Source of the DNA: Allokutzneria sp. NRRL B-24872
GTDB taxonomy: Bacteria > Actinomycetota > Actinomycetes > Mycobacteriales > Pseudonocardiaceae
NCBI RefSeq assembly: GCF_002155965.1
Contig: NZ_MUMH01000043.1
Coordinates: 1-64,000 of the forward strand
DNA: 64,000 nt
Reading direction: 5' to 3'
This document shows, piece by piece, positions 22,973 to 39,721 of the stretch (position 1 is its first letter; each line of letters begins with the position of its first letter). The translations under genes and the position numbers were made by a program. The notes beneath the pieces were generated by a model that worked only from the letters and a program-made list of their open reading frames with translations, was not told the origin of the DNA and did not search any database.

Positions 22973-23043
22973 TCCGCCGTGGTGTAACGGCAGCACCTCA
23001 GATTTTGGTTCTGATGGTTCAGGTTCGAATCCTGGCGGCGGAG
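22973..23043 (+). tRNA. tRNA-Gln (UUG anticodon)
   Basis: The acceptor arms TCCGCCG and CGGCGGA pair over 7 bp, with discriminator G at 23043. The anticodon stem TCAGA/TCTGA holds the 7-base loop TTTTGGT, which gives anticodon UUG. The T arm GGTTCGAATCC is canonical. CCA is not encoded. Confidence 0.96.
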
Positions 23044-36730: not shown

Positions 36731-37546
36731 TCAGGCGGGGATCACACCGCCCGGGAAGGTCTTGCCGATGAACTCGCGCACCTGCTGCGAGCGCAGCAGC
36801 TCCGCCAGCGCCTTGATCCGCTTGTCCTCGGCCAGCTCCGGCCGGGTGACCAGCAGGTTGGCGTAGGCGTTGCCCTCGGCCTTCTCCACCACGAGCGCGG
36901 TCTTCAGGTCGAGCTTGGCCTCCAGCTGGTAGTTGCCGTTGACCACGGCGGCGTCGGCGTCGTCCAGGCTGCGCGGCAGCTGGGCGGCCTCGGTCTCCAG
37001 CAGCTGCACCCGCTTGGGGTTCTCGGCCACGTCCTGCTTGGTGGCCTTGGCCTCGGTGCCCGGCTTGAGCTTGATCAGGCCGGTCGAGGCGAGCAGGTTC
37101 AGCGAGCGGGAGAGGTTGCTCGGGTCGTTGGGCAGCGCGACCTTGGCGCCCTGCGGCAACTCGTCGACCTTCTTGACCTTCTTGGAGAACACCGCGAGCG
37201 GCTCCACGTGCACAGGGGCCACGGACTGGAGCTTGATGTTGCGCGCGCCGGTGAACTCCTCCAGGTAGGGCTTGTGCTGGAAGTAGTTGGCCTCCAGCTG
37301 GCCCTCGGCGAGCGCGGTGTTCGGCGTGACGTAGTCGTTGATCTCGACGACGTCGACCTTGATGCCCTTGTCCTTGGCCAGGTTGTCCGCGACGTAGCGC
37401 AGGATCTCGGCGTGCGGGACGGGGCTCACGCCGACGCGGATCGCGGCGTTGGGGTCCTTGGCGGGGTCAGCGCCACCGCAGGCGGCCAGGACGAGGGCGC
37501 TGGCGGTGACGACTGCGGCGGCGGCGAGCGTGCGGATACGACGCAT
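36731..37546 (-). CDS. metQ: Methionine ABC transporter substrate-binding lipoprotein MetQ
   Basis: A 271-residue lipoprotein of the NlpA/MetQ family. The lipobox VLAACGG anchors it at Cys23. The family motif RVGVSPVPHAEILRYV and NYFQHKPYLEEF follow. It delivers methionine to MetNI. It is the last gene of the metN-metI-metQ operon, 33 bases after metI, and falls under the SAM riboswitch upstream of metN. Confidence 0.95.
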   Translation of the reverse strand: MRRIRTLAAAAVVTASALVLAACGGADPAKDPNAAIRVGVSPVPHAEILRYVADNLAKDKGIKVDVVEINDYVTPNTALAEGQLEANYFQHKPYLEEFTGARNIKLQSVAPVHVEPLAVFSKKVKKVDELPQGAKVALPNDPSNLSRSLNLLASTGLIKLKPGTEAKATKQDVAENPKRVQLLETEAAQLPRSLDDADAAVVNGNYQLEAKLDLKTALVVEKAEGNAYANLLVTRPELAEDKRIKALAELLRSQQVREFIGKTFPGGVIPA

Positions 37547-37579: not shown

Positions 37580-38263
37580 TCAGGCGGTGACCCGGCGGCG
37601 GCGGTCGATGCCGCGCGAGCCGAGGTCGAAGAGGAACTGCACGAGGCGGGCGAAGACGCCGAGCACCACGACGGTGCTGATCAGCACCTTGGTGTCGAAG
37701 CGCTGGTAGCCGTAGCGGATCGCGAGGTCACCGAGACCACCGCCGCCGACGACGCCCGCCATGGCGGAGTAGCCGATCAGCGCGATCACGGTGACGCCGA
37801 TCCCGGCGACGAGCGCGGGCGCGGCCTCGCGGAGCAGCACGCCCCGCACGATGTGCGGTTTGGTGGCCCCGGTGGTGATCGCGGCCTCCACGACGGAGGT
37901 GTCCACCTCGCGCAGCGCGCCTTCGACGAGCCGGGCGAGGAACGGGATCGCGCCGACCGTCAGCGGGACCACGGCGGCGGTGCTGCCGAGCGTGGTGCCG
38001 ACGATCGAGCGCGTCACCGGGAGCAACGCGATCAGCAGGATCACGAACGGCAGTGACCTGCCGATGTCCACGACGAAGTTGAGCACCCGGTAGGTCAGCG
38101 CCTGCGGGCGCAGTCCTCCCGGCGAGGTGACGTGCAGCAGCACGCCCAGCGGCAGGCCGCCGATCAACGCGAACACGGCGGAGAGGACCACCATGTACAG
38201 CGTCTCCCACCCCGTTTCCGCGAGCAGCTCAAAAACGGTGGACCAGGGTGTTTCGGTTCTCAC
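37580..38263 (-). CDS. metI: Methionine ABC transporter permease MetI
   Basis: A 227-residue membrane permease with about five helices. The EAA loop (LREAAPALVAGIGVTVIALIG, cited in part as EAAPALVAG) couples it to the ATPase MetN. The start GTG 38263 overlaps the metN stop (GTGA); the frame is open slightly further up, but that part lies within metN. It carries methionine inward together with MetQ. Confidence 0.94.
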   Translation of the reverse strand: MRTETPWSTVFELLAETGWETLYMVVLSAVFALIGGLPLGVLLHVTSPGGLRPQALTYRVLNFVVDIGRSLPFVILLIALLPVTRSIVGTTLGSTAAVVPLTVGAIPFLARLVEGALREVDTSVVEAAITTGATKPHIVRGVLLREAAPALVAGIGVTVIALIGYSAMAGVVGGGGLGDLAIRYGYQRFDTKVLISTVVVLGVFARLVQFLFDLGSRGIDRRRRVTA

Positions 38264-39273
38264 GCAGCAGTCCCCGCAACCAGGGTGGGCTTGTGGCGGA
38301 CGACGGCGCCGCGCTCGCCGATCCACTTGAGGGCGGCGTCGGCCCGCTCGCCGTTGAGCGCGATGCGGAAGCGGGCGACGGGGGTGTCGTTGAGCCGGGT
38401 CATGCCGCCGCCGAGCAGCGAGAGCTCGACGTCGTGGCGGCTGGCGGCCTCCGGCAGCAGCGCGCCGACCGCGGCGAAGCCGACCAGCACCACGTCGGCG
38501 ACGCGGTCGTGCTGGGCGGTGTGCTGCTGGGAGACCTGGTCCAGCTCGGGCAGCAGCGCCGAGGCGGTGCGGCTGCCGGGCTCGGAGATCAGGTCGAGGA
38601 CCTTGCCGTTCTCCACGACGCGACCGTGCTCCAGCACGGCGATGTCGTCGCAGATCCGGCGGACCACGGCCATGTCGTGGGTGACAACCAGGACGGTGAG
38701 GCCCAGCTCGGAGCGCACGCGGTCGAGCACGGTCAGCACGGAACCGGTGGTCTCCGGGTCCAGCGCTGAGGTCGGCTCGTCGGCCAGCAGCACCGAGGGG
38801 CTCGCGGCGAGCGCGCGGGCGATGGCAACGCGCTGCCGCTGGCCACCGGAGAGCTGGTCGGGGTAGTTCGCCGCTTTGTCAGACAGGCCAACGAGTTCCA
38901 GCAGTTCGGCCACCCGCTGCTTGCGCTGCGGTCCGGGAACCTTCGCGGCCTCAAGGGGAAGCGCGATGTTGCCAGCCGCGGTGCGTTGGCGCAGCAGGGA
39001 ATCCGTCTGCGGGACGACGCCGATCTGCCTGCGGGCCGCGCGCAGCGAGGCACCGGAGAGGCTGACCAGGTCCGTGCCGTCCACCCGGATCGAGCCGGAG
39101 TCCGGCTGCTCCAGCAGCGCGATGCAGCGCGCCAGGGTCGACTTGCCGGCACCGCTGGTGCCGACGACGCCGAGGATCGTGCCGGCGGGAACCTCCAGGG
39201 AGACGCCGTCCAGCGCGCGGACCTCGCCCCCCTTTCCGGGAAAGCTCTTGGTCAGGTTCTCAACAGTGATCAC
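38260..39273 (-). CDS. metN: Methionine ABC transporter ATPase MetN
   Basis: A 337-residue ATPase. Walker A GTSGAGKST, signature LSGGQRQR and Walker B VLLADEPTSALD are intact. A C-terminal ACT-like NIL domain (about 255-337) senses methionine and inhibits transport, as in other MetN proteins. The start GTG 39273 has GGAG 7 bases upstream; an upstream open frame is rejected. It is preceded by two hairpins, a leader peptide and a riboswitch. Confidence 0.95.
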   Translation of the reverse strand: MITVENLTKSFPGKGGEVRALDGVSLEVPAGTILGVVGTSGAGKSTLARCIALLEQPDSGSIRVDGTDLVSLSGASLRAARRQIGVVPQTDSLLRQRTAAGNIALPLEAAKVPGPQRKQRVAELLELVGLSDKAANYPDQLSGGQRQRVAIARALAASPSVLLADEPTSALDPETTGSVLTVLDRVRSELGLTVLVVTHDMAVVRRICDDIAVLEHGRVVENGKVLDLISEPGSRTASALLPELDQVSQQHTAQHDRVADVVLVGFAAVGALLPEAASRHDVELSLLGGGMTRLNDTPVARFRIALNGERADAALKWIGERGAVVRHKPTLVAGTAA

Positions 39274-39292
39274 GATATGACTCCATGGCACG

Positions 39293-39340
39293 GCTGCCGC
39301 TCGTGGCGGCAGCGCTCCGAGACCGTCCACAGTGGACGGT
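39293..39340 (-). promoter_or_regulatory. Two hairpins between the leader peptide and metN
   Basis: CCGTCCACAGTGGACGG (39324-39340) and GCTGCCGC...GCGGCAGC (39293-39313) can both fold in the transcript. Neither is followed by a T run. They could act as an attenuator with leader translation, or only space the messages. Confidence 0.45.
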
Positions 39341-39365
39341 TAAGGGGGTGGGGTGTGCGGTGTGG

Positions 39366-39479
39366 TCAGGCGGCGGCGCGGAATGCGCGGCGACAACCAC
39401 TCACCGTGCGGAGGCACTGGTCGACACAGCGTCGACGGACCAGGTTGGGTCGACGCGCGGACATCGGCTGGCGAGACAT
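39366..39479 (-). CDS. Cys/Arg-rich leader peptide upstream of metN (37 aa)
   Basis: A 37-codon open frame between the riboswitch and metN. GGAG lies 5 bases before its ATG (39479). The peptide has ten Arg and three Cys (residues 18, 22 and 29) in the pattern LVRRRCVDQCLRTVSGCRR. This resembles the short actinobacterial 'putative leader peptides' (often with RRHVDL and a C-terminal Cys) found before sulfur genes. Such peptides are thought to sense cysteine supply or arrest the ribosome. Not previously tied to this operon, as far as can be judged here. Expression itself is inferred. Confidence 0.65.
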   Translation of the reverse strand: MSRQPMSARRPNLVRRRCVDQCLRTVSGCRRAFRAAA

Positions 39480-39486
39480 GAGGACT

Positions 39487-39571
39487 CCATCGGTCCTGGC
39501 GTTAGCACCTGCCCGTTTCCGGGTGGTTGCTGCGGCGTCGCTGAGCCAGGTCTCTCGGCCGCTCGGGATGG
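39487..39571 (-). promoter_or_regulatory. SAM riboswitch (SAM-I/SAM-IV superfamily) controlling metNIQ
   Basis: The minus strand shows P1 CCATC/GATGG and P2 GCGGC/GCCGC. It then has the core AGCAACC (39535-39540 region), a P3 hairpin CCCG-GAAA-CGGG, and the hallmark GGTGCTAAC (39501-39509). The kink-turn-like GAGAGACCTGGCTC lies in P2. The usual P4 of SAM-I is absent or very short. Such RNAs bind S-adenosylmethionine and lower expression of methionine genes. A TACTGT -10-like box lies upstream at 39582-39587. Confidence 0.85.
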
Positions 39572-39721
39572 ATTGCTGCGAACAGTAGAACCGACGATGA
39601 CGGACAGAGGCAAGTCGTTTCGGGTCTCAAACCGTGGATCGTTCGGCACGTCACACTCATGGCCGAATGCGCAGGTGAACGCCCCGGGAACGTGAACTAT
39701 TCCCGAATGGTGATACCAGTC

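Follow-up and report, generated by a model that had tools for sequence, protein, structure and literature searches.

A SAM-I riboswitch adjoining the start of a conserved cysteine-type leader peptide gene in the metNIQ leaders of Pseudonocardiaceae

Background

Control by riboswitch and control by amino-acid attenuator are usually presented as alternatives, and the leader of the metNIQ operon of Allokutzneria sp. NRRL B-24872 raises the question of why it appears to hold one of each. The original prediction for this DNA, a stretch of 64,000 nucleotides that we call the window, was that a SAM riboswitch and a short peptide frame rich in Cys and Arg follow one another ahead of metN, and that the peptide resembles the actinobacterial leader peptides found before sulfur genes. 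The questions considered here are how the two elements are joined, which parts of them are conserved, and what the pair might sense.

In 2020 Canestrari reportedly found that mycobacterial leader peptides with several Cys respond to cysteine. Cysteine-responsive attenuator peptides in mycobacteria are discussed in PMC13236596, and earlier candidates for mycobacterial Cys leader peptides are given in PMC1262725 and PMC4633059. In M. tuberculosis, uORFs under riboswitch control have already been described for the ligands B12 and Mg2+ (PMC11260477, PMC12810186). A search of the open-licence literature, with subscription papers outside its scope, found no report of a SAM riboswitch combined with a cysteine-type leader peptide.

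Results

The leader and its operon lie on the reverse strand in the order SAM-I aptamer, peptide ORF, C-rich stretch, two hairpins, GGAG, metN, metI and metQ, followed by ispE, with ksgA upstream (Table 1). All three transporter genes have support from Pfam. The best NCBIfam match of metN is TIGR02314, below its cut-off, and because TIGR02314, PRK10782 and PRK11063 all miss their cut-offs for the transporter genes, methionine is only the presumed substrate. The nearest named MetN, that of Allokutzneria sp. A3M-2-11 16, is 95% identical, and further named relatives include those of Kutzneria, Saccharopolyspora, Umezawaea, Actinopolyspora, Actinoalloteichus and Pseudonocardia. Elsewhere in the window a tRNA gene is found at 22973-23043 on the forward strand.

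Table 1. Features of the metNIQ leader and operon, in window coordinates
Feature	Coordinates	Strand	Remarks
-10-like TACTGT, probable promoter	39582..39587	-	spacing 7 nt to aptamer 5' end, 15 nt to P1 UCCAUC
SAM-I (S box) riboswitch aptamer	39484..39574	-	RF00162, 62.7 bits against gathering score 44.4; full model 1-108
P1 5' strand UCCAUC	39567..39572	-	pairs with 39491-39486 (Rfam alignment); UCCAUC in 96/129 leaders
P1 3' strand GAUGGA	39486..39491	-	GGA is part of leader ORF SD; GATGG directly 3' of aptamer core in 129/129 leaders
SD GGAG of leader ORF	39485..39488	-	5 nt before ATG
Leader peptide ORF	39366..39479	-	ATG, 37 codons and stop; MSRQPMSARRPNLVRRRCVDQCLRTVSGCRRAFRAAA; 3 Cys, 10 Arg
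Conserved core RRCVDQCLRTVSGC (R0 to C13)	39393..39434	-	family consensus RRV[VI]DxxRRTxxxC
Invariant Cys codon UGU (codon 29)	39393..39395	-	TGT in 129/129 leaders and 117/117 distinct rows (rows related by descent)
C-rich, G-poor stretch just after leader stop (rut-like)	39338..39365	-	C exceeds G in 37/40 genera (0-15 nt) and 39/40 (15-30 nt)
Hairpin ACCGUCCACUGUGGACGGU	39322..39340	-	fold z -3.5 for 39262-39368; holds palindrome found 7 times in window
Hairpin GCUGCCGC-CACGA-GCGGCAGC before metN SD	39293..39313	-	fold
metN SD GGAG	39281..39284	-	GGAG or AGGAG 5-10 nt before metN in 128/128 leaders with located start
metN	38260..39273	-	GTG start at 39273; ABC ATPase with NIL domain; Pfam ABC_tran and NIL above cut-off
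metI permease (longest ORF)	37580..38326	-	Pfam/NCBIfam searches
metQ lipoprotein	36731..37546	-	Pfam Lipoprotein_9, 284 bits, above cut-off

MetN was matched in 134 genomes of the family. For comparison we assembled 130 metN leaders from 129 of them; G040, which shares its genus and almost its score with G073, was left out, as were the weak matches in G006, G051, G082 and G138. An ORF with a common core occupies the same place in 129 of the 130 (129 Pseudonocardiaceae genomes; the motif-bearing leaders represent 41 genera). The window ORF is retained in both congeners, with its core unchanged. The exception, L099, is the second MetN copy of one genome and lacks the aptamer core. One leader, L165, was excluded from counts that need the metN start.

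The Rfam scan found a single SAM-I aptamer in the whole window, its ends within 3 bases of the 39487-39571 originally predicted, and no match there to SAM-IV or SAM-I/IV at gathering score. RF00162 also passes in all 20 further metN leaders that were chosen from the 129 and searched with cmscan, and at four motif-bearing metN loci (L041, L047, L160 and L177). By aptamer sequence and structure score, the window element is thus a SAM-I riboswitch, which would be expected to bind SAM; P1 is absent from a plain minimum free energy fold of the aptamer region computed without ligand. The family is common in these bacteria, with RF00162 matches in all 150 Pseudonocardiaceae genomes sampled (mostly two copies) and in 168 of the 246 genomes of the class sample (nearly always one copy). 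A -10-like TANNNT occurs 8-32 nt before P1 in 65 of the 111 leaders whose P1 5' strand could be located by pattern (18 of the 129 could not), nearly always at -13 to -15, vs 13 of 387 control windows. No promoter was recognized at the TACTGT site of the window by a scan for the sigma-70 consensus.

The riboswitch and the peptide ORF are more than neighbors. Both are present in one leader, as had been proposed, but they do not simply follow each other: the GGAG of the leader ORF (39488-39485) shares three bases with P1 (39491-39486). This is the placement of a Shine-Dalgarno sequence within P1 that marks a translational SAM riboswitch, found here for the leader peptide ORF, and because the SD overlaps the P1 3' strand, it is the peptide start and not metN that adjoins the riboswitch. 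An in-frame start codon lies 6-15 nt after the GG of GATGG in 129/129 leaders (67 GTG, 55 ATG and 7 TTG). When the first ATG or GTG 5-16 nt after the GG was chosen by position alone, it was in frame with the core in 116 of the 122 leaders that have one. An upstream segment able to form at least 5 consecutive pairs with GATGGA was present in every one of the 129 leaders, and 6 pairs in 112, in a search that allowed G-U pairs and tried 32 offsets. The P1/SD overlap makes a strong case that the leader peptide would be the direct target of SAM. At two other kinds of gene, by contrast, the aptamer directly precedes the gene's own start. The second SAM-I riboswitch of the genome (L001, 1501-1633, reverse strand) stands before a gene read as thrC, with that gene's own SD at P1, and short SAM-I aptamers at L379-L381 lie directly before a GNAT-like gene (read by eye), an unusual target for a SAM riboswitch.

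The predicted counts of three Cys and ten Arg in 37 codons proved exact for the window ORF. Across the family the wider core of the peptide is L-T-x-R-R-V-[VI]-D-x-x-R-R-T-x3-C, with one Cys kept. The search pattern for the core demands R0, D/E4 and C13, so conservation at these three positions is partly by construction; four leaders were placed by exact strings, and the pattern failed outright in 1 of the 130. The core alignment comprises 64 of 65 chosen cores, which were chosen from 88. Between genera, 60% of the differing codons in an 18-codon stretch are synonymous in frame, vs 10% and 6% in the other frames, and at the nine pattern-free positions the corresponding values are 43% vs 8% and 7%. 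Codon mismatch rates in the 18-codon stretch are 0.57 at third positions, 0.22 at first and 0.15 at second. These patterns indicate that the leader ORF is under selection at the protein level.

Arginine in the core is encoded by up to six different codons that vary freely. The TGT at C13 is imposed by no search pattern; positions 6, 11 and 14 of these ORFs, where Cys is also frequent, hold 32 TGT and 53 TGC. The window's 46 gene-like ORFs contain 12 TGT and 119 TGC. Because the leader rows are related by descent, their counts are not independent. The peptides range from 23 to 89 amino acids among the 129, with a variable N-terminus, and carry one Cys in 53 cases, two in 41, three in 28 and four in 7. 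With a single Cys in 53 of 129, Cys-richness is ruled out as a conserved trait. The Cys of the window peptide occur at codon 18 in 5 of 117 distinct rows, at codon 22 in 50 and at codon 29 in all 117. Alignment of the leaders, which had been suggested as a check, therefore bears out the conservation of aptamer core and peptide in 129 leaders, but among the Cys only that of codon 29 is kept and those of codons 18 and 22 mostly are not. The description of the peptide as Cys- and Arg-rich is accurate for the window; what selection keeps is one UGU-encoded Cys and RRxVDxxRRT, and not richness in Cys. Nor were the tandem Cys codons of a cysteine attenuator found, since the three Cys of the window peptide are not in tandem and 53 of the 129 peptides have only one.

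The window peptide is a divergent member of its group, with no match in NCBIfam (E<=10 for NF042933) or Pfam. Among five other metN peptides, NF042933 (Ms5788A Cys-rich leader peptide, cut-off 45 bits) was not reached: four scored 8.6, 12.5, 16.2 and 20.2 bits, and one had no match. Of 62 core peptides, 22 match NF042933 at E<=10 (best 0.0055) and 3 match NF042934 at the same limit (cis_reg_atten, cut-off 27 bits; best E 0.0017), and NF042934 matched none of six fully scored metN peptides, the window peptide included. With a model built from 23 non-metN peptides, 125 of the 129 metN peptides score above the best shuffle (11.2 bits among 2341 scored shuffles; 2580 were made and 239 gave no score), a likeness that is partly selected because the 23 were found with models containing metN cores. 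At 4.9 bits the window peptide falls below the shuffle maximum, as one of the four of 129 that do not exceed it, and it is assigned to the RRxVD...C group by position and orthology only.

At E<=0.003 a broader model detects an RRxVD...C-like signature in the class, with hits in 111 of 148 genomes. Of 30 loci that it returned, 29 were read (L328 was left out); they hold 26 TGT and 3 TGC, and most lie before a DUF4395-like or sulfurtransferase gene, as read by eye. A cmscan of 20 of these loci turned up a single element, of the SAM-IV type and over 1 kb away from the peptide. The source genome encodes three further RRxVD...C peptides with UGU; the genes downstream, again read by eye, are a sulfite/PAPS reductase cluster (L405, G000:C53), an OsmC-like gene (L404, G000:C24) and a DUF4395-like gene with a sulfurtransferase gene (L406, G000:C437). 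These three loci are probably parts of a cysteine regulon. Relatives of the metN peptide thus occur before sulfur genes, both in other actinobacteria and in the source genome, without an adjoining riboswitch. Together with the weak NF042933 and NF042934 matches of related metN peptides, they uphold the predicted resemblance to actinobacterial leader peptides before sulfur genes.

The combination of aptamer and peptide is not confined to metN. In genera g5 and g42, the latter without a MetN match, aptamer, GATGG, start codon and RRxVD...C-like peptide precede other genes at nine loci (L395-L403). The Cys codon is TGT at seven of these and TGC at two, and seven of the nine aptamers pass the gathering score, the other two reaching 42.1 and 42.4. 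Two more composites, with aptamers of 33-34 bits, were found in G082. The best NCBIfam matches of three partial downstream proteins, all under cut-off, are an NtaA/DmoA FMN monooxygenase, an ABC binding protein (TIGR04028) and an amine-oxidase-like protein. A single genome, G006, has six RF00162 matches, five of which are composites with the leader peptide before different genes (L395-L398 and L403).

Outside the family, MetN-like leaders were taken from 29 of 34 other genomes with a MetN-like match, where L342 was cut by a contig end. The aptamer core was found in none of the 29, within 500 nt or anywhere in the locus, and cmscan gave no RF00162 match in 20 of them. Eight of the 29 (L345, L347, L348, L350, L352, L354, L356 and L358) carry a Streptomyces-type GARC[ML]CRM peptide instead, similar to metL of S. 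lividans (PMC8079986). From this distribution the composite is portable but restricted. Both Cys and Met codons occur in the Streptomyces-type metN leader peptides; the interpretation published for this leader (PMC8079986) involves methionine and threonine only.

Between the leader stop and the metN start lie about 60-230 nt. The first 30 nt after the stop are 0.44-0.46 C and 0.17-0.21 G, a composition unlike that of the ORF or the upstream region, and this C-rich stretch fits a role for Rho. No intrinsic terminator was found at 39200-39720. In the window, the metN SD and the bases 3' of it are predicted to fold onto the leader stop region. Predicted accessibility of the metN SD in 128 leaders depends little on ribosome position, being 0.25 with the ribosome at the leader start, 0.27 at the Cys and 0.31 at the stop. 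Consensus folds made per genus suggested that the Cys-codon region pairs over a long range with the metN start. By duplex energy, own pairs of these two regions are no more complementary than pairs drawn between genera; by longest helix, z reaches 4.7 at a few windows and -3.2 at others, with phylogeny included in these values. A repeated element, the palindrome GTCCACTGTGGAC, has 7 copies in the window (8054, 9857, 18928, 39325, 39923, 44246 and 51787) against an expectation of 0.01; one copy is in the metN leader and another inside ksgA.

Discussion

Because a SAM switch adjoins a conserved gene for a cysteine-type peptide, SAM and cysteine signals probably meet in this one RNA leader. We favor, with moderate confidence, a two-input leader in which the SAM riboswitch gates translation of a cysteine-type attenuator before metNIQ. 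Transcription would start just before the SAM-I aptamer. High SAM would stabilize P1, mask the SD and leave the leader peptide untranslated, and the untranslated RNA would be the default, non-permissive state, in which either the metN start is occluded or the C-rich RNA after the ORF is open to Rho. When SAM is low, P1 would open and a ribosome would translate the leader peptide; if cysteinyl-tRNA were also short, this ribosome would pause on reaching the invariant UGU, close to the ORF's end, where it could remodel or shield the RNA before metN and so allow metNIQ to be expressed. Uptake would be highest with SAM and cysteine both in short supply. In this scheme SAM binding, SD masking, translation of the ORF, pausing at UGU, the coupling to metN (translational or through Rho) and the direction of the cysteine response are all expectations. 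Sensing of cysteine by the peptide is suggested by its kinship, by the genes that neighbor its relatives and by the mycobacterial attenuators. Two observations count against a simple cysteine reading. Peptides with a single Cys, 53 of 129, would be weak as codon-hunger sensors, and in the window a ribosome at the Cys would still be 27 nt from the stop and would leave the pairing of the stop region with the metN SD uncovered.

The single-Cys peptides fit better with a relay that does not sense cysteine, in which translation of the leader alone, by reinitiation, unfolding or Rho shielding, permits metN expression and the peptide is conserved for some other reason. The P1/SD overlap in 129/129 leaders, the C-rich RNA after the leader stop and the precedent of a B12 riboswitch and uORF at ppe2 of M. 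tuberculosis (PMC11260477) all agree with such a relay. The distance from stop to metN start, with no stop-start overlap like that at ppe2, does not, and neither do the invariance of UGU or the relatives of the peptide before sulfur genes with no riboswitch adjoining them; we regard the relay as unlikely. The UGU might instead belong to an arrest peptide, in which the nascent RRxVDxxRRT chain and a single slow codon together pause the ribosome, and the signal is cysteinyl-tRNA, free cysteine or another small molecule and not simple codon hunger. Residues are kept over 14 positions although their Arg codons vary freely, UGU is fixed at one position only, one Cys is often enough, and a like signature is found in most of the 148 class genomes. 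Against this, the mycobacterial peptides have several Cys and reportedly answer to cysteine, so that this explanation seems quite improbable to us.

The remaining explanations separate the two elements. The riboswitch might act on metN through a distant platform while the peptide is an independent cysteine attenuator, its SD lying in P1 by coincidence. Each type of element is known singly, but the nearly fixed position of SD and start relative to the aptamer core in 129/129 leaders, the recurrence of the same geometry at other genes, and the thrC-read and GNAT-like genes, where the aptamer places the gene's own start at that position, lead us to disfavor this reading as very improbable. That the peptide is a small trans-acting protein, binding thiols or metal, would suit its Arg and Cys content and its conservation. 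Its variable length and N-terminus, its location between aptamer and metN in all 129 leaders and the codon-level constraint on UGU make this the kind of explanation to which we give hardly any credence.

The two-input leader shares parts with several known systems. Its aptamer is that of the SAM-I riboswitch (RF00162), with the difference that P1 carries the SD of a leader peptide and not of a metabolic gene. Like the mycobacterial Cys leader peptides (NF042933, NF042934 and NF042936), the metN peptide is encoded by a short ORF with a Cys near its end, before sulfur genes, and an RRxVDxC-type signature is common to those peptides and to the metN peptides that match NCBIfam models. The mycobacterial ORFs are described as leaderless, whereas the metN leader ORF is led by an SD from riboswitch P1. 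At the B12 riboswitch and uPPE2 of M. tuberculosis a riboswitch likewise hides the SD of a uORF, and the downstream gene depends on translation of that uORF, but the ligand is another one, the uORF overlaps the gene, and the excerpt of the source describes no amino-acid sensing (PMC11260477). The Mbox of M. tuberculosis pe20 also combines a riboswitch, a translational platform, a conserved uORF and Rho-dependent termination; it differs in its ligand, Mg2+, and in having a peptide to which no role is assigned (PMC12810186). In S. lividans, metL is a leader peptide with Cys codons before metNIQ, but its sequence, GARCMCRRMCAF, is unrelated, the source as excerpted reports no SAM aptamer, and it is read as methionine-dependent (PMC8079986). 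The uORFC-8-2 before cysS in Rhodobacterales has conserved Cys codons as well, and differs in having two in tandem, mostly UGC, and an intrinsic terminator (PMC8632094).

A broader proposal, which we offer tentatively and consider somewhat doubtful, is that the composite is a portable module of the Pseudonocardiaceae in which ribosomes bind at P1 of a SAM-I riboswitch to translate a nascent-chain sensor that has a single, near-obligatory UGU. Low SAM would license translation and arrest would report on cysteine, giving a NOR-type gate of the two signals ahead of metNIQ and also of FMN-monooxygenase-like, transporter and amine-oxidase-like genes.

Conclusions

In the Pseudonocardiaceae a riboswitch has apparently been put in control of an attenuator, in an arrangement that is shared by 41 genera and recurs at other genes. 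Control of an operon by a riboswitch through a peptide ORF, a question raised by recent mycobacterial work, would become directly testable in this leader, and the invariant UGU of a widespread peptide group offers a clean test of codon choice vs nascent chain in cysteine sensing. If the two-input reading is true, it would explain why a cysteine-type leader peptide stands before a methionine importer, and the leader would be a natural two-input RNA gate that joins both ends of sulfur amino-acid metabolism, SAM and cysteine.
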